A stretch of 64,000 nt of DNA. Origin: Catenulispora sp. EB89 (GTDB lineage: Bacteria; Actinomycetota; Actinomycetes; Streptomycetales; Catenulisporaceae). Of this stretch, positions 15,897 to 27,524 are shown piece after piece. The DNA lies in assembly GCF_041261445.1 (NCBI RefSeq), contig NZ_JBGCCU010000005.1, forward strand, positions 434,001 through 498,000. Reading direction: 5' to 3'. Within the stretch, counting starts at the first letter, position 1; every line of letters begins with the position of its first letter. The notes below the pieces were generated by a model. That model was not told the origin of the DNA, ran no database searches, and saw only the letters and a list, made by a program, of their open reading frames with translations. The translations under genes were made by a program, and so were the position numbers.

Positions 15897-16730
15897 GTGG
15901 GTTCGCTTCGAAATCCCGTCGGATCTCTCGCGCCCGCCGTCTATTGGCGGCGGCGCGTTTTAGTTGTGCTGGCCGTCGTCGCGGTGTTGGCGCTGGTCCT
16001 CTACGCGTGCTCGGGGTCGGGCTCCAAGAAGAAGCAGTCCGCCGGGGACGGTACGGGCAGTCCGACCGCGTCGCAGTCCTCGGTCCCGACCGCGAGCGGT
16101 TCGCAGACCGCAGCCAGCGGCGGGGCGTCCGGCGGCCCGTCCTCGGCCAACGGGAGCGTGCCCTCCGGCAGCGCCGGCGGGGCCAGCGGCTCGGCTTCGG
16201 GGTCCGGCGGCACCAACGGCGGCAGCAACGGCGCCGCCGGCGGCGTCAACGGCGGCGCGAACAGCACCGGGGGAACCGGGGGAACCGGCGGCACGGGCGG
16301 CACCGGCGGCTCCACCAGCGGCCCCGGCTGCCAGCTCAGCCTGAGCCTGACCTCGCAGTCCCCGGCCTACGCCAACGGCGTGGACCCGCAGTTCACCGTC
16401 GCCGTGGTCAACAAGGGCACCGCCGACTGCGACGTCGACGTCAGCCCGAAGTCGCTGGTCCTGAACGTCTACTCCGGCCCGGACCACGTCTGGTCCTCGG
16501 CGGACTGCGCGACCGGCGGCAAGGACCTGCGCGGCATCGCCCCCGGCGGGGTCCAGACGATCACGTTCAGCTGGAACCGCACCCGCTCCTCCCAGGGCTG
16601 CACCGCCGGCAGCTCCTCGGCCAAGCTCGGCATGTACTTCGGCGTGGTGAGCCTGGGACCCGGCAGCGGCTCGAACGCCCCGGCCGCGCAGAGCCAGCCG
16701 AAGAGCTTCGAGCTGAAGACCGGCAGCTAA
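15897..16730 (+). CDS. Membrane-anchored surface protein with Ser/Gly linker and DUF4232-like domain
   Basis: The 277-residue protein begins with a basic segment and a transmembrane helix (about residues 18-38, ending in YACSG, possibly a lipobox). A long Ser/Gly/Thr linker follows, including repeated GGT triplets (about 16267-16315). The C-terminal β-rich domain has four Cys and resembles DUF4232 of actinobacterial exported proteins. No enzyme motif is seen. GTG 15897 is preceded by TAGAGT with an 8-nt gap. The gene is divergent from mutY. Confidence 0.75.
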   Translation: MGSLRNPVGSLAPAVYWRRRVLVVLAVVAVLALVLYACSGSGSKKKQSAGDGTGSPTASQSSVPTASGSQTAASGGASGGPSSANGSVPSGSAGGASGSASGSGGTNGGSNGAAGGVNGGANSTGGTGGTGGTGGTGGSTSGPGCQLSLSLTSQSPAYANGVDPQFTVAVVNKGTADCDVDVSPKSLVLNVYSGPDHVWSSADCATGGKDLRGIAPGGVQTITFSWNRTRSSQGCTAGSSSAKLGMYFGVVSLGPGSGSNAPAAQSQPKSFELKTGS

Positions 16731-17708: not shown

Positions 17709-18797
17709 CTACACGTACCGCTCAAGGATCGACGACTCCGCCAGCCGCGACAGCCCCTCGCGCACCGACCGGGCCCGGGTCTCCCCGACGCCCTCGACCC
17801 GCTGCAGGTCGTCGATCGACGCCGCGAGCAGCTTCTGCAGGCCGCCGAAGTGCTCCACCAGCCGGTCGATGACCGTGCCGGGCAGCCGCGGCACCTTGGC
17901 CAGCAGCCGGTACCCGCGCGGCGACACCGCCGACTCCAGCACCTCGACGCCGCCGCTGAAGCCCATCGCCTTGGCCGTCTGCAGCAGATCCAGCAGCGCC
18001 GTGCGGTCCAGGGCGCCCAATTCCTCCGAGACGTCGGCCACGCTGCGTGCCTTCTTGCCGGTGCGCTCGGGCAGGTAGTCGCGGGCGATCAGATCGCGGT
18101 CCGGGTCCACGCCGGCCATCAGCTCGTCGAGCTGGAGCGACAGCAGCCGGCCGTCCACACCCAGCTGCACCACGTAGCCGGCCACCTCGTCGGCGATGCG
18201 GGTCACCATCTCCAGCCGCTGCGCGACCGCCGCCACGTCGCGGACCGTCACCAGGTCCTCGATCTCCAGCGCCGACAGCGTGCCGGTGACCTCGTCCAGC
18301 CGCAGCTTGTAGCGCTCCAGCGTGGCCAGCGCCTGGTTCGCCTTGGACAGGATCGCGCCGGAGTCCTCCAGGACCACGCGCTGGCTGCCCAGGTAGAGCG
18401 CGATGATGCGCATCGACTGGGAGACCGACAGCACCGGGAAGCCGGTCTGCTTGGCGACGCGGTCGGCGGTGCGGTGCCGGGTGCCGGTCTCCGCGGTCGG
18501 GATCGCCGGGTCCGGGACCAGCTGCACCCCGGCCCGCACGATGCGGCTGCCGTCGGTGGAGACCACCACGGCGCCGTCCATCTTGCACAGCTCGCGCAGC
18601 CGCTGCGGGGAGAACTCGACGTCGAGCACGAAGCCGCCGGTGGCCATCTCGTCGACCAGCTTGTCGAAGCCGAAGACCACCAGGCCGCCGGTGTTGCCGC
18701 GCAGGATGCGCTCCAGACCGTCGCGCAGGACCGTGCCCGGCGCGACGCTCGACAGGATCGCCGACAGGGCGGCGCGTTCGGAGGCCTCACCTGTCAC
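17709..18797 (-). CDS. disA: DNA integrity scanning protein DisA, diadenylate cyclase
   Basis: DisA makes cyclic di-AMP and scans DNA for branched structures. The 362-residue protein has the DAC domain with DGA (residues 74-76) and RHR (107-109), the two active-site motifs. A helical spine follows, then a C-terminal helix-hairpin-helix region (IDDLQRVEGVGETRARSVREG). The length is usual. GTG 18797 is used; no earlier start gives family-like residues. radA lies 120 nt upstream on the same strand. Co-transcription is probable, since that gap shows no strong hairpin. Confidence 0.97.
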   Translation of the reverse strand: MTGEASERAALSAILSSVAPGTVLRDGLERILRGNTGGLVVFGFDKLVDEMATGGFVLDVEFSPQRLRELCKMDGAVVVSTDGSRIVRAGVQLVPDPAIPTAETGTRHRTADRVAKQTGFPVLSVSQSMRIIALYLGSQRVVLEDSGAILSKANQALATLERYKLRLDEVTGTLSALEIEDLVTVRDVAAVAQRLEMVTRIADEVAGYVVQLGVDGRLLSLQLDELMAGVDPDRDLIARDYLPERTGKKARSVADVSEELGALDRTALLDLLQTAKAMGFSGGVEVLESAVSPRGYRLLAKVPRLPGTVIDRLVEHFGGLQKLLAASIDDLQRVEGVGETRARSVREGLSRLAESSILERYV

Positions 18798-18917: not shown

Positions 18918-20324
18918 TTACCGGCGCGCGCCCGTCGCCACGGCGTGAAGCGCTGCCCGGACGTCGCCCACTTCGACGATCGACAGCCCCGCAAGGTTCC
19001 CTCCGTAGTCCTTGCCGTCCGGATCCGGCGGGACCAGCGCGGTCTTGAAGCCCAGCCGCGCGGCCTCGGTCAGCCGCCGCCGCACCCCGGTCACCGGCCG
19101 CACCTCGCCGGCCAGCCCCACCTCGCCGATCGCCACCACGCCCTCGCCGACCGGCTCGTTCACCGTCGCCGAGGCCAGGGCCAGCAGCAGCGCCAGGTCC
19201 GCGGCCGGCTCGGTGAGCCGCACGCCGCCGACGGTCGCGCTGTAGATCTCCGAGCTCGCCAGCCCGGCGATGCCGCCGCGCTGCTGGAGCACGGCCAGGA
19301 TCATCGCCACCCGGTTGGTGTCCAGGCCCGAGGAGGCCCGGCGCGGGGTCGGCGCGCTGGTCTTGGTGACCAGCGCCTGCACCTCGGCGACCAGCGGCCG
19401 CCGGCCTTCCAGGGTGACGGTGACGCAGGTGCCCGGGACCGGGACCGGCCGCCGGGACAGGAACAGGCCCGAGGGGTCGGACAGGCCGCGGATGCCGGTG
19501 TCGTGCATCTCGAAGCAGCCGATCTCGTCGCTGGCGCCGTAGCGGTTCTTCACGGCCCGGATCAGGCGCAGCGAGGAGGCCCGGTCGCCCTCGAACTGCA
19601 GGACCACGTCGACCAGGTGCTCCAGGATGCGCGGGCCGGCGATGCTGCCGTCCTTGGTGACGTGCCCGACCAGCACGCACGCCATGTTGCGGTCCTTGGC
19701 GTCCCGGATCAGCGAGGCCGCCACCTCCCGGACCTGCGTCACGCCGCCGGGGGTGCCGTCCACCGCGGCCGAGGCGATGGTCTGCACCGAGTCCACGATC
19801 ACCAGCCGCGGCTGCACCGCCTCGATCTGCCCGAGCACCGAGCCCAGGTCGGTCTCGGCGGCCAGGAACAGGTTCGGGTGCAGGGCCTTGATCCGGTCTG
19901 CGCGCAGCCGGACCTGGGCCGCCGACTCCTCGCCGGTGACCACCAGGGTGCGGGCCCCGGAGGAGGCGTACGCGGCGGCGGCCGCCAGCAGCAGCGTCGA
20001 CTTGCCGATGCCGGGCTCGCCGGCCAGCAGCACGACGGCGCCGGGCACGACGCCGCCGCCCAGGACCCGGTCCAGCTCGCTGACCCCGGTCGGGACCGCG
20101 GCCGCGTCGTCCACCGCGACGTCGCCGATCGGCCGGGCCTTCTGGGTCGGCATGGTGGCGACGGTCTTCGGCGCGGACTTGGCCGCGCCCCGTTCCTCAA
20201 CGCTGCCCCAGGTTTGGCACTCGCCGCAGCGGCCGACCCATTTCGCGTACTGTGTGCCGCACTCGGTGCACTGGTACGTGGCCGCCGGTTCGGCCTTCCG
20301 GGCGCGGGAGTTGGCGGTCGGCAT
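18918..20324 (-). CDS. radA: DNA repair protein RadA
   Basis: RadA is a RecA-like ATPase that helps branch migration in recombination. The 468-residue protein has an N-terminal zinc ribbon (Cys19, 22, 33, 36) and Walker A GEPGIGKST (102-110). It carries the RadA-specific KNRYG motif (usually KNRFG) and a C-terminal Lon-protease-like domain (EGVVAIGEVGLAGEVRPV). It is upstream of disA on the same strand, a pairing seen in many bacteria. ATG 20324 has TACCGT 6 nt upstream on the minus strand, consistent with leaderless transcription. Confidence 0.97.
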   Translation of the reverse strand: MPTANSRARKAEPAATYQCTECGTQYAKWVGRCGECQTWGSVEERGAAKSAPKTVATMPTQKARPIGDVAVDDAAAVPTGVSELDRVLGGGVVPGAVVLLAGEPGIGKSTLLLAAAAAYASSGARTLVVTGEESAAQVRLRADRIKALHPNLFLAAETDLGSVLGQIEAVQPRLVIVDSVQTIASAAVDGTPGGVTQVREVAASLIRDAKDRNMACVLVGHVTKDGSIAGPRILEHLVDVVLQFEGDRASSLRLIRAVKNRYGASDEIGCFEMHDTGIRGLSDPSGLFLSRRPVPVPGTCVTVTLEGRRPLVAEVQALVTKTSAPTPRRASSGLDTNRVAMILAVLQQRGGIAGLASSEIYSATVGGVRLTEPAADLALLLALASATVNEPVGEGVVAIGEVGLAGEVRPVTGVRRRLTEAARLGFKTALVPPDPDGKDYGGNLAGLSIVEVGDVRAALHAVATGARR

Positions 20325-20496
20325 GAGGCCACGGTAGCGGTCGGCGCCGACACCGGGCGGCCGACCATCCGCCGGCCATCCGCCGACGGGTATCGGTATA
20401 AACAGGGTGATTCCAGGATGACTTCGGCGGCAACCTCTGGTCGAATGCCCAGATCCACTGGCTAGTTGTCGCTCGAATGGCTTAACGTCTGAGGCC

Positions 20497-21795
20497 GTGA
20501 CAGACCGGGAAATGGTGACGGCGCTGCGCGCGGGGGATCAGCTCGCCATCGGGCAGATCTACGACACATACGGCGCGCGCTTGTATGCATATTGTTACGA
20601 CCTGCTCGCCGATCATGAGCTGGCCGCTGACGCGCTGCGTGACGCGTTCATCGTCGCCAACAACCGGATCCGCGAGCTGGCCAACCCCGACGAGCTCGGC
20701 GCCTGGCTCTACGCGCTGAGCCGGGCCGAGGCGCTGCGCCTGGGGGTCTCCGACGACATCCCCGCCGACGCCGCGCAGGGCACCCGCAACGACCGGTTCG
20801 CCCGGGCCGCGCTGGACGTCTACGCGATGCTGCCGCCGGAGACCCGGGAGATCCTCGACCTGGCCTTCCGGCACCGCATGGTGGACGGCGACCTGGCGCT
20901 GGTCATGGACATGTCCGAGGAGCAGATCGGGCAGGTCGTCCAGGACGCCCAGGACGACCTGGAGAACGGTCTGACCGCGGTGCTGGCCAACCGGGTCGGC
21001 GACCCGCGCTGCGCGGAGATCGCCGAGCTCGGCAAGCGCTTCGACCGGCTGGACGGCAAGGCCGTCGAGCCCTGGCTGGACGCGGTCTCCCGGCACGTGA
21101 AGACCGACCAGGCCTGCGCCGACCACATCGAGAACCGGCGGCCGCTGCGGCTGTTCGAGGAGCTGCCGCACGCCTTCGTGCCGCCGGGCGTGCGCGCCCG
21201 CGTGCTGGACACCCTGCGCGACCCGGCCGGTGCGGCGTTCTGCCAGCGCATCGCGGCCCGGGCCGGGGCCTTCGACGAGTCCGGGTTCCCGGCGGCCGGC
21301 GGCAAGACCGGCGTCGGCGGCGCCCGCAAGCTGCTGCCCATCGCGGGCATCGTACTGGTGGTGCTGGCGGTCGGCGGCGTGGCGGTGGCGATGGTCGGCG
21401 GCGGGGGCGGCAAGTCCGGCTCGGCCGGGACCGGGACCGGTGCCACGACGTCGACGACCTCCTCCTCGGCGTCCTCCGCGGACACCAGCGCGGCGTCCTC
21501 GGCGGGCTCCACCTCGGCGCCGACGCAACAGGCCACCGATTCCGCGACGGGCTCCTCGACCGACAACGGCGGCGCGCCGAGCGGCGGCGGGCAGACGGAC
21601 ACCGGCGGATCGACGCACCACACCTCGTCGACCTACCGGCGCACCACCCCGTCGTCGCACAGCTCCACGCCGAGCAAGAAGCCGACGACCACGACCGAGC
21701 CCACGACGCCCTCGACGTCGACGTCCCTTCCCACCGGTCCCGGCCTGCCGAGCAACACCGAATCGACGAGTTCTCCGACCAGCTCTTCCAGCTGA
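20497..21795 (+). CDS. Membrane-anchored ECF-sigma-like protein
   Basis: The first ~170 residues look like a degenerate ECF sigma factor. A region-2-like part (MVTALRAGDQLAIGQIYDTYGARLYAY) is followed by a region-4-like part (LPPETREILDLAF). A helical segment with a His-Cys-His cluster (HVKTDQACADH) then resembles part of a zinc-binding anti-sigma domain. One transmembrane helix (about residues 284-306) leads to a long Ser/Thr-rich extracellular tail. Such fusions would tether a sigma-like domain to the membrane. It is paralogous to the next gene: the segment before the membrane helix (RPLRLFEELPHAFVPPGVRARV) aligns with it. GTG 20497 has TAACGT 8 nt upstream. Confidence 0.75.
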   Translation: MTDREMVTALRAGDQLAIGQIYDTYGARLYAYCYDLLADHELAADALRDAFIVANNRIRELANPDELGAWLYALSRAEALRLGVSDDIPADAAQGTRNDRFARAALDVYAMLPPETREILDLAFRHRMVDGDLALVMDMSEEQIGQVVQDAQDDLENGLTAVLANRVGDPRCAEIAELGKRFDRLDGKAVEPWLDAVSRHVKTDQACADHIENRRPLRLFEELPHAFVPPGVRARVLDTLRDPAGAAFCQRIAARAGAFDESGFPAAGGKTGVGGARKLLPIAGIVLVVLAVGGVAVAMVGGGGGKSGSAGTGTGATTSTTSSSASSADTSAASSAGSTSAPTQQATDSATGSSTDNGGAPSGGGQTDTGGSTHHTSSTYRRTTPSSHSSTPSKKPTTTTEPTTPSTSTSLPTGPGLPSNTESTSSPTSSSS

Positions 21796-21964
21796 TCGGC
21801 AGCCCCCCGCGCCGATCGGCGCACCGGATGACCGGGCGCGCGCAAGTCGCCCGGTCGAGTGATACCGACGTTTGGTCACGGCCCGGGTCGCAGAACCCCT
21901 CGAAGGTGGCAACCTGGGCCGATTCTCTGATCAGCGCACCGGCACATGTCTAACGTCGGCTGGT

Positions 21965-24900
21965 GTGAAAGACCACGACTCGAACGCCACGGATCCCCGC
22001 GATCCCGCGGACCCGGTGAACCGGGACAGCGTCTCCGACAGCTGGGGGCGCGCGGCGGCCTACGACGCCTACGCGGACGGTCTGCACACCTACGCCCTGG
22101 GCGGCCTGCGCCACCACGAGGCCGCGTCCTCGGCGGTGTACTGCGCCTTCGTCGCCGCCGACCACCATGTGGCGCACCTCGGGGACGCCGAGATGCTGCG
22201 CCCGTGGCTCTACGCGATCACCCGGCACTACTGCCGCGCCGGCAAGCTGCCGCGCCTGCGCCTGACGGCCTCCTCGGCGCCGGTCCCGGCCCCCAAGGAC
22301 GCCGCGATGGCCGAGCTGGAGCGCACGCTGCTGGCGGCGGAGCTGGCCTCGCTGGACTGGCCGGACACCGACGGACTGAGTGCGGCGCACCGTGAGGTTC
22401 TTGAGCTTTCGGTCCGCCACGGGATGGAGAGCCGCGCGGTCGGGATGATGCTCGGCAAGCCCGCGGCGGAGTCGTTCGAGGTGCTGTCCGAGGCCTGGCA
22501 CGAGCTGGAGCGCTCGCTGGCGGCGCTGGCCCTGCTGCGCACCTCGCGCTCGCACTGCCCGGACCTGGCGGCGCTGGCCGAGGGCTGGTCCGGCCGGCTC
22601 ACGGCCCAGCGCCGGGAGCCGCTGGTCGCGCACGTGGACGCCTGCTCACGCTGCCAGTACCACCTGCACAAGGTCATCGGGGCCCCGCAGGCCCCGTCGA
22701 TCCTGCCGCACGTCCCGGCGCCGCAGGAGCTGCGCGACCGGGTCCTCGGCGACCTGCTGGACAGCAGCCCGGAGAAGGCGGCCGAGAAGACCGCGATCGC
22801 CGGCCGGCTCACCCGGTTCGACCGGTCCGGGTTCCCGGCGATAGCGACGATGCGGCTGCCCGCGCTGCCCCAGCAGCAGCAGCAGCTGCAGCCGCACCCG
22901 CGCTCCGCCGCGCCGATGCCGGTGGAGCGCCGCCAGCGGCGCCTCGGCGCGCTGCTGGCCGGCCGCGTGTCGTCGGCCGCCGCGGAGGCGGTGGCGGGCG
23001 AGGTGGCCTCGGCCCCCGAGCGATTACGCACCCCGGTGTCGGCGTCCGTGGACGCGAAGACACCGGCGAACACGATGAACGAGGGAAGTGGTTTCGATGA
23101 TTCTGCTCTGAGCGCCATGAGCACGGGAGGCGACCGGCGCCGGTGGCTGCGCCGGGCGGCGGAGGCCTCGGCGGAGCCCGACGAGGGCCCGATCGCGCCG
23201 CGCCGGGGACTGGCGGCGCCGGCCGAGCCGCAGCGACGGGGCGGTGCTGCGGACGGCGACCCGCTCGGAGGACTGGTGACAGCTCTGCCGCGCGATGAGA
23301 GCAGGCGCGGCGCGGGATCGCACGCCGAGGAGTCGTTCACCGCGAATTCCTCGACCGAAGTCCTCGCGGCGCTGCGCTCCGAAGACCGGTCCGACGACCT
23401 TGCTGAAGACCGTGCCGAAGACCCTGCTGAGAACCGCGGCGAAGACCGGGGGGCCCTGCGTCCCGAAGACCTCGACGCGTCCTTCGGTCCGCGCCGCTCT
23501 TCCTCTCTCGAGGACACCCTGATCACGGCCGGCGTCTTCGAGGACGTCCGCCCGGCCCGCCCCGTGCCCTCCCGCGGCCCGGTCCCGCGCAACTCCGTGG
23601 CCGCCGCCGTCGAGGGCCGGCGGCGGGGCGTCGAGGACGTGCGGCGCGGCGCCGCGCCGGTCGGCGACGCCTATGAGGCCGCGGCAAGCGTGGCGGCCGC
23701 GATGGCCGCCGGGAACGCCGGTGCGCAGGTGCCACCGATCGCACCGGCCGCGTCGGTCGCCTCGGCCGCGTCGGTCGGGCAGGCCGCATCGGTCGGGCAG
23801 GCCGCGCCGACCGCGCCGGTCGGGGTCATGCCGACCTCCGTCATGCCGCTGGGCATGGTGCCCGGTCGGCGGGTGCCGCGGGACAGGGACCGGGACCGAG
23901 ACAGAGACCGGGACGCCACGCGGGTCTTCGCGCGCCCCGTCGGCACCTCGCCGGAGCAGCGCAGGCGGAAGTCCGGCGTGAAGTCCGCGATCGCCAGCTC
24001 CGCCGTGCTCAGCGGCGTCGGCGCGGCCGGGGTGACGGCGTTCGTGCTCTTCGTGCCGTCCTCGCCGAGCGGCAACAAGACGCTGTTCACGCCGCCGGAC
24101 ACCGGGGGCAACGCCTCGCAGACGCCGGACTACCCGCGCCCCAGCTCCACCTCGGACGCCGCCGGGCCCGCGCTGCCGGTCGCCGGCAAGGTGCACTCCG
24201 CCGGGCTTCCCGGCGGCGACACCGTGACCGCGCAGGTGGTCGCGGCGGTGCTGCCGACGACGCCCTCCTCCTCGGCGCCCAGCACGGTCGGCGCCAGCCT
24301 GCCGTTCAACGGCCCGGTGAACCCGCTGCCGTCGCAGAGCGGCGACTCCCCGTCGCAGGACCCGAGCGGGGACGGAGAGCTGCACATCAGCGTGACGCAG
24401 CGCTCGAACGACCCGAGCGACGTCGTCGTCACCCTCTGGAACTCCGGCACCTCGCCGGTCAGCTGGACCGCGAGCCCCGACGAGCCCTGGCTCAGCCTCA
24501 GCGCCACCTCCGGCATGGTCGCCGGCGGTGGCCAGACCTCGATCCACGTCCTGGTGGACTCCGCGGCCGAGCCCGGCGGCGCGTGGACCGCGCACGTGCG
24601 CTTCGACCCGAGCGGCCAGATGGTCTCGATCAACGGCGTCGGCGGCTCCGGCGGCGGTCCGAGCAGCACGCCGAGCACGTCCCCGTCCAGCGGCCCCACG
24701 ACGCCGTCCTCGCCGTCCTCACCGCCGTCCTCGTCGCCGAGCGGCACGCCCTCGGGCACGCCGACCAGCCCGGTCAGCACCCCGAGCACGCCGCACAGCT
24801 CGCCGTCGAGCGTGAGCGGCAGCGGGGCGTCGAGCGGCAGCGCGAGCAGTCCGGGTAGCCCGGGTAGCCCGAGCAGCCCGGGCAGCCCGAGCTCGTCGGG

Positions 24901-25033
24901 CGGCGGGCCGTCGCGCGGCCCCAGCTCGCCGAGTACGCCGGGGTCCTCGGGCTCCTCGGCCTCTTCGAGTTCTCCGGCGTCTTCAAGCGCCCCGAGCTCT
25001 GGGCCCGGCAAACCCACCAAGCGCCGTCACTGA
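21965..25033 (+). CDS. Large membrane-anchored sigma-like protein with zinc-finger-like and BACON-like domains
   Basis: This paralogue of the preceding gene is about 1022 residues long. Its N-terminal ~220 residues are sigma-like. A HVDACSRCQYHL segment (H-x3-C-x2-C) matches the core of zinc-binding anti-sigma domains. A long low-complexity, charged cytoplasmic linker follows, including an Arg-Asp repeat near 23880-23920. One membrane helix (SSAVLSGVGAAGVTAFVLFV) leads outside to a β-domain (WNSGTSPVSWTASPDEPWLSLSATSG, split over two strands) that resembles BACON domains, then a Ser/Pro/Gly tail. GTG 21965 is chosen because TAACGT ends 8 nt upstream, exactly as in the paralogue. Codon 23024-23026 is TTA, rare in such genomes. 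Confidence 0.7.
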   Translation: MKDHDSNATDPRDPADPVNRDSVSDSWGRAAAYDAYADGLHTYALGGLRHHEAASSAVYCAFVAADHHVAHLGDAEMLRPWLYAITRHYCRAGKLPRLRLTASSAPVPAPKDAAMAELERTLLAAELASLDWPDTDGLSAAHREVLELSVRHGMESRAVGMMLGKPAAESFEVLSEAWHELERSLAALALLRTSRSHCPDLAALAEGWSGRLTAQRREPLVAHVDACSRCQYHLHKVIGAPQAPSILPHVPAPQELRDRVLGDLLDSSPEKAAEKTAIAGRLTRFDRSGFPAIATMRLPALPQQQQQLQPHPRSAAPMPVERRQRRLGALLAGRVSSAAAEAVAGEVASAPERLRTPVSASVDAKTPANTMNEGSGFDDSALSAMSTGGDRRRWLRRAAEASAEPDEGPIAPRRGLAAPAEPQRRGGAADGDPLGGLVTALPRDESRRGAGSHAEESFTANSSTEVLAALRSEDRSDDLAEDRAEDPAENRGEDRGALRPEDLDASFGPRRSSSLEDTLITAGVFEDVRPARPVPSRGPVPRNSVAAAVEGRRRGVEDVRRGAAPVGDAYEAAASVAAAMAAGNAGAQVPPIAPAASVASAASVGQAASVGQAAPTAPVGVMPTSVMPLGMVPGRRVPRDRDRDRDRDRDATRVFARPVGTSPEQRRRKSGVKSAIASSAVLSGVGAAGVTAFVLFVPSSPSGNKTLFTPPDTGGNASQTPDYPRPSSTSDAAGPALPVAGKVHSAGLPGGDTVTAQVVAAVLPTTPSSSAPSTVGASLPFNGPVNPLPSQSGDSPSQDPSGDGELHISVTQRSNDPSDVVVTLWNSGTSPVSWTASPDEPWLSLSATSGMVAGGGQTSIHVLVDSAAEPGGAWTAHVRFDPSGQMVSINGVGGSGGGPSSTPSTSPSSGPTTPSSPSSPPSSSPSGTPSGTPTSPVSTPSTPHSSPSSVSGSGASSGSASSPGSPGSPSSPGSPSSSGGGPSRGPSSPSTPGSSGSSASSSSPASSSAPSSGPGKPTKRRH

Positions 25034-25124: not shown

Positions 25125-26648
25125 CTACCGATTCAGCGACCGCACCGCGTGCGACGGCAGCACGGTACGTGCCGTGGCCGTCGCGCCGCTGTTCCCGGCT
25201 GCGGAGAACGGTCCGACGAACACCCCGCTGTACACGTCGGTGGCGTGCTGAGGCGCGTTCAACGAAGCCACGAACACGTTCTGCTCCCCGAGCGGACCGG
25301 CCGCCGCCATGCCCTCGTAGTCCCCGAGCATGTACCCGCCGGCGTTCGGCGCCAGCAGCCAGTCGAAGGCCGGGGTCAGCTGCCGCTCGGTGGCCAGCCG
25401 CGGATCGCCGAACGGCAGGACCTTCAGGAACCGCGCGGTCGGCAGCGTCGTGGTGTCGCCGGCCGGCAGGTAGCGCAGGTCGTAGTACGACAGGCTGACC
25501 GTCCCCAGCGCGTCCACCGAGACCACCGGGGTGAAGGCCGGCACGCCGGGCCTGCTCACCAGGGTCGGCGCCGACCACGTCCGGCCGTCGTCCCCGGAGG
25601 ACACCAACTCGACCTGGTCGTATTTGCCGGCGCTGAAGTCCGAGCCCTCATACGTCATCCAGATCCGGCCGGTCACCGGGTTCACCGCGACGGCCTCCAG
25701 GCCGCCGCCGGCCCGCAGACCCTTGTTCGGGTCGTTCGGGTCCACCTCGGCCACCGAGGAGTCGGTGGCCACCGGCGTCGGCGCGGACCATGTGGCGCCC
25801 TCGTCGGTGGAGGTGGCCATGGAGTACGTCGAGCCGATCGGGGTGTTCCCGGTCGCGTCGGTGTACTCGGTCATGTTGAAGAAGTCGTGGAGCGTGCCGT
25901 TCGGCTCCTCGACCACGATGTTGCCGATGGTCTGGGTGAACGGCGCGACCGCCGCGGTGTCGACCAGCTTCGCCGGGGCCGACCAGGTCTTGCCGTGGTC
26001 GTGGGTGACGGAGATCATCGCCGGTCCGGTGAAGCTGTTGTTGGAATTGTCCAGCCGGTCCCACACCTGGTATGCGACGCCGGGATGCAGCTGGTCGGCG
26101 GTGACGGAGTTCTTGTCGTCACCGAAGTCCGGGTCGTTGTCGGCGATGACCGGCTGCGCGTACTTCCACGTCGCGCCGCCGTCGAAGGAGGTCGCGGCGC
26201 CGACGCCGGAGCGCGGCGTGTTCTCGTCGAACTGCAGGGCGCTGCTGTAGGCGACGCCGTCCGGACCGAAGCTGACCCACAGGTCGGAGATCCGGTGGTA
26301 GTCGTTGGCCCCGGAGCACTGGCCGAACGGCAGCGTGCCCTCGGTGTAGTGCCGGCCGTCGGAGGTCCAGGCGTAGCCGCCGGAGTGCGAGCCGCCGTCG
26401 CTCCAGCGGTCCTGCTGCCAGGTGACGATCGCGCGCCGGGGCTGGCGCGGGTCGACGGCGACGAAGGGCTCGGTGGTGCTGTTCGGATACAGGGTGCCGG
26501 AGGCCGCGCCCGCGGTACAGGCCGCCACCGGGTTCGTCGGGGAGACCCGTTGTACCGGGCCGGGGCTGGCGCTCGCGAAGGACGCTGAGGTGGCCAGGGC
26601 GGTCAACAGCGCCGTTGCCGCGACCGCCGTTTTGTGGGCTCTGCGCAT
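25125..26648 (-). CDS. Secreted sialidase-fold (Asp-box) protein
   Basis: A signal peptide (MRRAHKTAVAATALLTALA, cleaved near ASA) precedes a ~480-residue β-propeller. The propeller carries Asp-box motifs: SFDGGATW, THDHGKTW, STDEGATW and SGDDGRTW. Such exo-sialidase-like proteins include true sialidases and many proteins of unknown glycan specificity. I do not see a clear catalytic Arg triad, so no substrate is given. ATG 26648 is preferred to an in-frame start 12 codons earlier because it begins a normal signal peptide and TAGTTT lies 7 nt upstream on the minus strand. Confidence 0.83.
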   Translation of the reverse strand: MRRAHKTAVAATALLTALATSASFASASPGPVQRVSPTNPVAACTAGAASGTLYPNSTTEPFVAVDPRQPRRAIVTWQQDRWSDGGSHSGGYAWTSDGRHYTEGTLPFGQCSGANDYHRISDLWVSFGPDGVAYSSALQFDENTPRSGVGAATSFDGGATWKYAQPVIADNDPDFGDDKNSVTADQLHPGVAYQVWDRLDNSNNSFTGPAMISVTHDHGKTWSAPAKLVDTAAVAPFTQTIGNIVVEEPNGTLHDFFNMTEYTDATGNTPIGSTYSMATSTDEGATWSAPTPVATDSSVAEVDPNDPNKGLRAGGGLEAVAVNPVTGRIWMTYEGSDFSAGKYDQVELVSSGDDGRTWSAPTLVSRPGVPAFTPVVSVDALGTVSLSYYDLRYLPAGDTTTLPTARFLKVLPFGDPRLATERQLTPAFDWLLAPNAGGYMLGDYEGMAAAGPLGEQNVFVASLNAPQHATDVYSGVFVGPFSAAGNSGATATARTVLPSHAVRSLNR

Positions 26649-26780: not shown

Positions 26781-27524
26781 TCAGGCCGGGTCGGCGGGGT
26801 GCGGGGCGACCAGGACCCGGGCGGCGTCCCGGGCCTCGCACATCCCCACCAGCACCTCGTAGGCCTTCTCGCCCATCATCTCGGTCAGCTCCGGGCCGTA
26901 GGACACGTAGACGGGCTCGCGCCCCACGTGCGCCTCGGTCGCCCCGGTGCACCACCAGTTCAGGTCGTGGCCGCCGCCGCCCCAGCCGCGCCGGTCGTAC
27001 TCGCCGATCGAGACGACGAGCACCTCGGTGCCGTCCGGCCGCTCGACGCGGTCGTACGACCGGCGCACTGGCAGCTGCCAGCAGACGTCCGGCTTGGTGG
27101 TCAGCGGATGCACGTCCTCGCGCAGCGCCAGCGCGTGCAGCGCGCAGCCCTCGCCGCCGGCGAAGCCGGGACGGTTCAGGAAGACGCAGGCCCCCTCGAC
27201 GACCCGCGTCTGCTTGTCGCCGTCCTCATCCTTCTGAGTGATTCCGAGTTCCTGACCCACCGAGCGGAACTGCCAGGTCTCGTCGGTGAGCCGCTCGGCG
27301 GCCTTCTCGACGCGCTTTCTGTCGGCTTTGTCCGAGTAGTGCGCACCGAGGGTGCAGCAGCCGTCGGAGGCCCGGCCGGGGCGGATGCCGCCGCAGCCCG
27401 CGCCCCAGATGCAGGTCCAGCGCGAGCACAGCCAGGTCAGGTCGGCCCGGTAGAGCTGGGCGGCGTTGTCGGGGTCGGTGAACTCCACCCATTCGCGGGG
27501 GAAGTCGAGCGGTACTTCAGGCAC
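26781..27524 (-). CDS. Conserved actinobacterial Cys-rich protein of unknown function
   Basis: The 247-residue protein has a dense N-terminal cysteine pattern ([15 protein letters not shown], then [12 protein letters not shown]). More cysteines follow in [11 protein letters not shown] and PDVCWQLP. The spacing suggests a metal- or iron-sulfur-binding fold. It resembles a widely conserved actinobacterial family that I recognise by pattern but cannot name with a function. GTG 27524 is supported by TAGGCT 6 nt upstream on the minus strand. It is divergent from the Ppx/GppA gene with 59 nt between starts. Confidence 0.8.

Follow-up and report, generated by a model that had tools for sequence, protein, structure and literature searches.

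Two membrane-anchored proteins encoded beside radA in Catenulispora carry a conserved but degenerate ECF σ-like part fused to an anti-σ-like zinc module

We analyzed a 64,000-nucleotide stretch of the Catenulispora sp. EB89 genome (contig NZ_JBGCCU010000005.1, positions 434,001 to 498,000; called the window here, and numbered from its first letter), focusing on two co-directional genes, P1 and P2, that lie in tandem past the divergent radA-disA genes and both encode membrane proteins. Each protein begins with a part that has the fold of an extracytoplasmic function (ECF) σ factor and continues with a module resembling zinc-binding anti-σ (ZAS) domains. The DNA-contact character of the σ-like part has been lost, in both segments in P1 and in σ4 together with a recognizable σ2 in P2, while purifying selection constrains this part about as strongly as it does radA and disA. 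Since the DNA-reading features are lost and yet the σ-like part is tightly conserved beside radA, P1 and P2 probably signal in a way unlike a normal σ factor. We favor, with moderate confidence, the reading that both descend from an actinobacterial ECF σ factor fused to its own zinc anti-σ domain, and that they act as membrane-anchored pseudo-σ sensors via a protein partner instead of through promoter recognition.

Domain architecture and σ ancestry

The features of the two genes, with transmembrane helices given as TM and serine-, threonine- and proline-rich segments as S/T/P, are as follows.

20497..21795, +: P1, 432 amino acids (aa), GTG start; σ2-σ4-ZAS-TM-S/T/P tail
20497..20742, +: P1 σ2-like domain (aa 1-82), Pfam Sigma70_r2 at 21.6 bits in the protein scan and 24.7 bits for the same stretch in a six-frame genome search (cut-off 24)
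20785..20991, +: P1 σ4-like domain (aa 97-165) with a strongly acidic recognition segment (net charge -7)
21010..21132, +: P1 anti-σ-like zinc module (aa 172-212), ligands C-H-D-C
21271..21291, +: P1 cap motif ending GFP, conserved in the family alignment
21340..21396, +: P1 membrane helix (aa 282-300), by hydropathy
21397..21792, +: P1 extracellular tail, 60% S+T+P
21965..25033, +: P2, 1022 aa; σ2-σ4-ZAS-long linker-TM-BACON-tail
22022..22243, +: P2 σ2-like domain (aa 20-93), AlphaFold match to ECF σ2-σ4
22343..22543, +: P2 σ4-like domain (aa 127-193), AlphaFold match; net charge -3
22556..22678, +: P2 zinc anti-σ-like module (aa 198-238), ligands C-H-C-C; profile match
22814..22837, +: P2 cap motif RFDRSGFP (aa 284-291), from the family alignment
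22841..23998, +: P2 cytoplasmic linker (aa 293-678, 386 residues), fast evolving
23999..24055, +: P2 membrane helix (aa 679-697), by hydropathy
24392..24598, +: P2 BACON_2 domain (aa 810-878), Pfam 29.7 bits (cut-off 25)

A preliminary description of the pair had proposed ECF-σ-like N termini, a His/Cys cluster similar to anti-σ zinc domains, one membrane helix per protein and a long extracellular tail with a BACON-like domain in P2, and this architecture is confirmed. The start of P2 was taken to be the GTG at 21965; the mechanical open reading frame opens at the TTG at 21872. When the same hydropathy rule was applied to 86 family proteins, it gave one membrane segment in 81, none in 3 and two in 2. 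In all 5 of the P2-type orthologues whose exterior was included in the scan, BACON_2 scored above its cut-off, and the Pfam scan of P1 found no recognized outer domain. The P2 linker contains acidic repeats and DR-dipeptide repeats; in the Streptomyces-type proteins inspected, a linker of this type is short or missing, with the helix starting close behind the cap. The cap itself, GFP or GYP, is present in all 54 rows of the larger family alignment (A3).

The zinc ligands are likewise well preserved, C-H-C-C being found in 7/7 P2 rows, in 42/42 Streptomycetaceae rows and in all 26 other rows, which comprise 21 that belong to other paralogues or lie outside the order and 5 from families f1 and f3 of the genome collection (defined below). 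The P1 group carries C-H-D-C in four of its five rows, namely all 4 from Catenulispora, and the Actinospica row has C-H-C-C. An H-x3-C-x2-C motif with an upstream Cys/His is thus present in P2 and in the Streptomycetaceae rows and absent from Catenulispora P1. Scanned alone, the P2 module matched Pfam zf-HC2 at 11.6 bits, below the cut-off of 22.2.

Single sequences gave weak matches to σ factors. P1 matched 38 NCBIfam models at E values up to 10 (best, 3.7e-8), and all of the 25 displayed scored under their curated cut-offs; P2 alone matched no σ model in the Pfam scan and NCBIfam models weakly (8e-4). A profile of the family (alignment A1, 22 rows) searched against the Protein Data Bank (PDB) matched ECF σ factors at E values down to 3e-12, RsiW at 2e-4 and RslA at 0.006. 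Among the 54 members of A3, matches at an E value of 0.01 were obtained to Sigma70_r2 for 9, to Sigma70_r4_2 for 21, to PhyR_sigma-like for 7 and to zf-HC2 for 4. In none of these scans did the N terminus show clear homology to an unrelated family.

Structure prediction, which had been suggested as a check, agrees with the profiles. AlphaFold modeled P1 with a mean predicted local distance difference (pLDDT) of 80.8 and a predicted template modeling score (pTM) of 0.79, and the N-terminal part of P2 with 88.3 and 0.84. Compared with the PDB, both models contain a σ2 and a σ4 of the ECF fold, the best match of P1 being CnrH (4cxf; Z 13.7, 2.3 Å over 149 residues), followed by SigW/RsiW (5wur; Z 13.2, 3.0 Å over 150 residues), and P2 matching CnrH at Z 11.6 (3.1 Å over 145 residues). 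For CnrH, SigW and RpoE in their anti-σ complexes, the Z scores were 13.7/13.2/11.6 for P1 and 11.6/10.7/10.1 for P2, with both σ domains in register; this comparison covered σ chains only. Foldseek E values were modest, at best 4.9e-4 (P1) and 0.05 (P2), and PhyR structures matched both models at Z 7-9. The ECFs bound to RNA polymerase, in those rows where both domains were aligned, fit the models only at 21-28 Å, which means that both models have a closed arrangement. The two outcomes that the preliminary description gave as refuting it, dissimilarity to σ domains in structure and an N terminus clearly homologous to another family, were thus not observed.

Loss of DNA-contact character and selection

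The σ regions had also been described as degenerate, and the genome-wide comparison bears this out. In a Sigma70_r2 search of the 11.9-Mb source genome, in which 150 of 182 candidates were scored, P1 ranked 126th of 127 matches (at its 24.7 bits) and P2 was not listed. None of six Streptomycetaceae orthologues scanned singly matched Sigma70_r2 at an E value of 1. As a reference for net charge we used the 30 best scoring of the 127 σ2 matches, whose ranges are broad because several are not ECFs (group 1 or 3) and some segments are truncated: their mean is +3.7 (1 to 7) in region 2.3-2.4 and +1.9 (-2 to +8) in region 4.2. The corresponding charges are -2 and -7 in P1, so that in Catenulispora P1 neither segment keeps its DNA-contact charge; P2 has +5 and -3, and its region 2.4 is the only one of these four DNA-contact segments that is basic. 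The Actinospica P1 has -2 in both regions, and the 42 Streptomycetaceae rows average +3.3/-0.1.

These data bear on an alternative that we consider unlikely, namely, that P1 and P2 are working ECF σ factors of the fused, membrane-released kind, set free by proteolysis to read an unusual promoter. The strongly acidic recognition segment of P1 σ4 argues against it, as does the fact that Pfam recognizes σ2 neither in P2 nor in any of the six Streptomycetaceae proteins scanned singly. On its side, P1 retains D and F in the helix of region 2.2, which in σ factors has a core-binding role, region 2.3-2.4 of P2 is basic, and relatives with a σ2 above the cut-off exist. The architecture is, in addition, that of groups ECF48, ECF52 and ECF53, for which regulation by proteolysis is expected and such release has been proposed (PMC8999054), and SCO4117, an ECF52 member from Streptomyces coelicolor, affects development and antibiotic genes and is described as a transcription activator (PMC5826349).

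To quantify constraint, we used the ratio of nonsynonymous to synonymous substitution rates (dN/dS). With the nearest complete genome (G004) as the comparison, dN/dS was 0.12 for the σ part of P1 and 0.04 for that of P2, compared with 0.11 for radA and 0.10 for disA; against a more distant locus (L089), the values were 0.13, 0.16, 0.14 and 0.17, respectively. The ZAS parts gave 0.22 and 0.24 against G004 and 0.24 and 0.29 against L089. For the remaining parts, whose repeat-rich tails align poorly, the ratios against G004 were 0.48 for the P1 TM and tail and 0.45, 0.59 and 0.73 for the P2 linker, BACON and end, and those against L089 ranged from 0.41 to 1.03; for the P1 σ part, dS is low (0.07 against G004). 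Decay of P1 and P2 as pseudogenes is rejected by these ratios, and the σ-like part is not decaying, being the most constrained part of the proteins. The same gradient weighs against a second alternative, in which the σ-ZAS module is left over as a structural element or anchor, a stable plug, and the function resides in an exterior that binds wall or glycan. The large S/T/P-rich exterior with its BACON domain would fit such a role, but it is the σ-like part that is most constrained and the exterior and BACON that evolve faster (P2 dN/dS of 0.59-1.03 outside), and we regard this alternative as rather improbable.

Genomic context, distribution and history

The conserved neighbors of the pair are the following.

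18918..20324, -: radA, divergent
17709..18797, -: disA
26781..27524, -: DUF3109-like gene on the other side, match below cut-off

By DNA, the nearest relatives of the stretch are Catenulispora (best segment 88%, C. pinistramenti), in a search from which the genome's own records may be missing. In the genome collection used here, family f1 comprises Catenulispora and Actinospica (two families of Catenulisporales at NCBI), family f2 is taken to be Streptomycetaceae, family f3 is a single genome (G015), and the order is the one that holds Catenulispora and Streptomyces. All 147 sampled genomes of this order match the family profile at an E value of 1e-10, 139 of them better than 1e-60 and the weakest at 8.7e-14, radA adjacency having been checked for part of them. 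Two adjacent matches, i.e., the P1-P2 pair, occur in 14/14 f1 genomes and in the f3 genome. In the class Actinomycetes, 67/296 genomes, from 23/106 genera, match at 1e-25.

A survey of the pair beside radA, proposed in the preliminary description, showed radA next to the family gene in nearly all loci of the order examined, and the pair in f1 and one further genome. Among the best 80 of 527 relatives found, the family gene is present in all 80 loci; radA has a match in all 80 but is counted as adjacent in 79, its match in L121 being distant and partial, and disA is present in 79. The DUF3109-like neighbor is found in 66 of the 80; some contigs end first, and L103, L151 and L163 are without it. 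The pair is present in all six loci of the Catenulispora/Actinospica type (L087-L092). These locus and genome counts are not independent, since the six loci are among the 14 f1 genomes, and the overlap extends to at least one Streptomyces locus. Among 28 f2 loci (L039-L066), radA is adjacent in every case.

Outside the order, 15 of 17 loci fetched have no radA in the fetched stretch. The exceptions are L068, where radA lies ~4 kb away, and L067 (genome G153), where an ECF-ZAS-TM fusion with a good σ2 (42.4 bits) and σ4 stands beside a DUF3109-like gene, radA and disA; this is possibly a picture of the locus before degeneration. Less degenerate relatives with a σ2 over the cut-off occur in other Actinomycetes. 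Another genus (L076 and L077) has ECF-ZAS-TM fusions of a less degenerate kind, also arranged as tandem pairs; no radA match was seen there within the stretch fetched. A further actinomycete family, f17, has fused ECF-ZAS members with a weak σ2: L071, L073, L082 and L085 fall below the σ2 cut-off and L074 lies just over it. Some of these members have a good σ4.

In a tree of 51 rows, P2 of f1, the second f3 copy and the Streptomycetaceae proteins form one clade (100/100), and P1 belongs to another (100/100). The two genes had been described as tandem paralogues: they are related, with ~30% identity between their N-terminal parts, but they are not a recent local duplication, since a single clade of f1 P1 and P2 was rejected in the approximately unbiased (AU) test (p 0.014). 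Degeneration was therefore probably independent in P1 and in the P2 lineage. The AU test did not reject P1 as the orthologue of the first f3 copy (p 0.286), and it did not distinguish separate decay of the Catenulispora-type P2 and Streptomycetaceae from one decay shared by both, the f3 copy branching outside them (p 0.483); these tests all lose force because the groups were defined with the tree already in view. In the f3 genome, the σ2 of the P2 copy still scores above the cut-off (28.5 bits). The σ2 cut-off trait, whose state is known for 25 of the 51 tree rows, requires at least 6 changes, the cut-off being an arbitrary line.

Upstream of each gene lies a -10-like box.

20483..20488, +: TAACGT, 8 bases before the P1 GTG, probable leaderless promoter
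21951..21956, +: TAACGT, 8 bases before the P2 GTG

The common TAACGT-N8-GTG start pointed out in the preliminary description is real, with exactly two occurrences in the window (20483 and 21951) against 0.07 expected and two in 0/100 shuffles. The P1 genes of L087-L092 have a TAnnnT box at this same distance from the start (6/6), and one lies 5-9 bases before the start of 84/86 family genes, compared with a mean of 5.2 and a maximum of 9/86 in 20 block-shuffled controls. Leaderless promoters of actinobacteria are known to carry boxes of this kind (PMC3160421), and a special meaning for co-regulation was dropped in favor of an ordinary leaderless box.

A BNR/sialidase-like protein is encoded at 25125-26648 (-), between P2 and the DUF3109-like gene; it is also present in L089 and has no match in L013. 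On the far side of disA, 15897-16730 (+) encodes a small membrane or secreted protein that, by gene order, is possibly the counterpart of SCO3353, which is listed as a glycoprotein (PMC6593405). S. coelicolor RadA is SCO3351 (PMC3897704), so the P2 orthologue should, by gene order, be SCO3350. We found no study of the Streptomyces radA/disA-adjacent gene in the literature searched, supplements and subscription journals aside, and the papers retrieved for SCO3349-SCO3354 do not mention SCO3349 or SCO3350. For the terms looked up, PMC11256431, PMC4255298 and PMC9130861 yielded nothing on the radA-adjacent gene; the last of these uses sco3352 RNA as a control (PMC9130861).

Proposed mechanism and relation to known systems

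In the mechanism we propose, the cytoplasmic pseudo-σ would be held in a closed arrangement by its own ZAS module, while the S/T/P-rich or BACON-containing exterior would read an envelope signal. This signal, possibly with proteolysis, would open or free the σ-ZAS module, which might then bind a protein partner rather than a promoter. Candidate partners are core RNA polymerase or another ZAS anti-σ factor, in the way that PhyR titrates NepR. A role as membrane-tethered regulators that sense the cell surface, as put forward in the preliminary description, is plausible; membrane anchoring is the part that stands, and sensing and regulation are what we infer.

Several observations weigh against the pseudo-σ reading. 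Region 2.3-2.4 of P2 and of Streptomycetaceae is as basic as in real σ factors, the charge of P2 σ4 (-3) is barely outside the range of the 30 reference factors and the Streptomycetaceae σ4 mean is inside it, so P2 may still contact DNA. The 26 other, less degenerate family rows are also low in charge (means, +1.7/+0.9). P2 could be off the genome list simply because 32 candidates went unscored, P1 σ2 is over the Pfam cut-off in one of its two scans, and so is Sigma70_r2 in the Actinospica P1 (30.3 bits; P2 there, 13.6), while one of the six Streptomycetaceae orthologues passes the σ4 cut-off (34.4 bits). On the structural side, SigK/RskA fits the models only at 8.4-9.5 Å, the AlgU and SigE complexes fit only over σ2, and AlphaFold may prefer the closed arrangement because the deposited structures on which it was trained do. 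Finally, all PhyR-family scores displayed fall below the cut-off.

The ZAS module invites a further alternative, which we hold to be slightly less probable still than a structural remnant: that the proteins are anti-σ factors in trans, the ZAS with its pseudo-σ lid capturing another ECF at the membrane, as the ligands retained where σ residues decay, the profile matches to RsiW and weakly to RslA and the many possible clients among the 127 genome σ2 matches would allow, but against which stand the zinc cysteine lost from Catenulispora P1 (C-H-D-C, 4/4 rows) and a client that is only hypothetical.

Extended to the whole order, the pseudo-σ reading becomes more tentative, and we put it forward as a possibility short of an even chance: the core family beside radA and disA may consist of membrane-spanning pseudo-σ receptors in which promoter reading was lost separately in P1 and in the P2 lineage and which were kept as protein-interaction modules, transcription in actinobacteria being controlled across the membrane by σ mimicry. 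Fused ECF-anti-σ membrane proteins have so far been treated as σ factors awaiting release, and here a branch conserved across an order appears to have given up much of its DNA-reading chemistry while strong selection maintains the σ fold. If this is true, σ mimicry, known from PhyR, also exists in a membrane-receptor form, and the radA/disA neighbor that is widespread in Streptomyces offers a direct genetic test.

The fused architecture itself is already known from ECF48, ECF52 and ECF53, with which P1 and P2 share an ECF domain, a zinc anti-σ-like domain, a membrane helix, a long low-complexity exterior and their occurrence in Actinobacteria (PMC5826349, PMC8999054); what is new is a conserved branch with a decayed σ. 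The features that define the fused groups (a single chain with an ECF domain, a zinc finger and one or two membrane helices) are all present, in P1 with the C-H-D-C site. The regulatory extension is ~270 residues in P1 and ~830 in P2, compared with up to 400 described for the fused groups (PMC8999054). SCO4117, which lies beside atrA, is described as having a carbohydrate-binding module and an ECF domain conserved at 86% average similarity, whereas P1 and P2 lie beside radA, have BACON (P2) or no recognized outer domain (P1) and carry a degenerate σ. Because SCO4117 is called the sole ECF52 member of S. coelicolor, the radA neighbor has apparently not been counted as ECF52.

Among two-protein systems, SigW/RsiW shares the fold and the closed σ2-σ4 arrangement, and the ZAS is related by profile to RsiW and weakly to RslA of SigL/RslA; those are pairs of separate proteins with a working σ factor, whereas P1 and P2 each join both parts in cis. 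In Pseudomonas putida, IutY (ECF243) likewise combines σ and anti-σ in one membrane protein (PMC8999054) but serves iron-starvation cell-surface signaling with a working σ released by proteolysis. A parallel for the decay is PhyR of Alphaproteobacteria, whose σ-like domain has a correct ECF fold with degenerate promoter and core RNA polymerase regions and titrates the anti-σ factor NepR (PMC8103513). P1 and P2 resemble it in their degenerate σ-like fold and in the weak family matches to PhyR_sigma-like. They differ from this response regulator in that whole-protein Pfam scans of P1, P2 and their orthologues detected no receiver domain, and in that they carry a ZAS and span the membrane.

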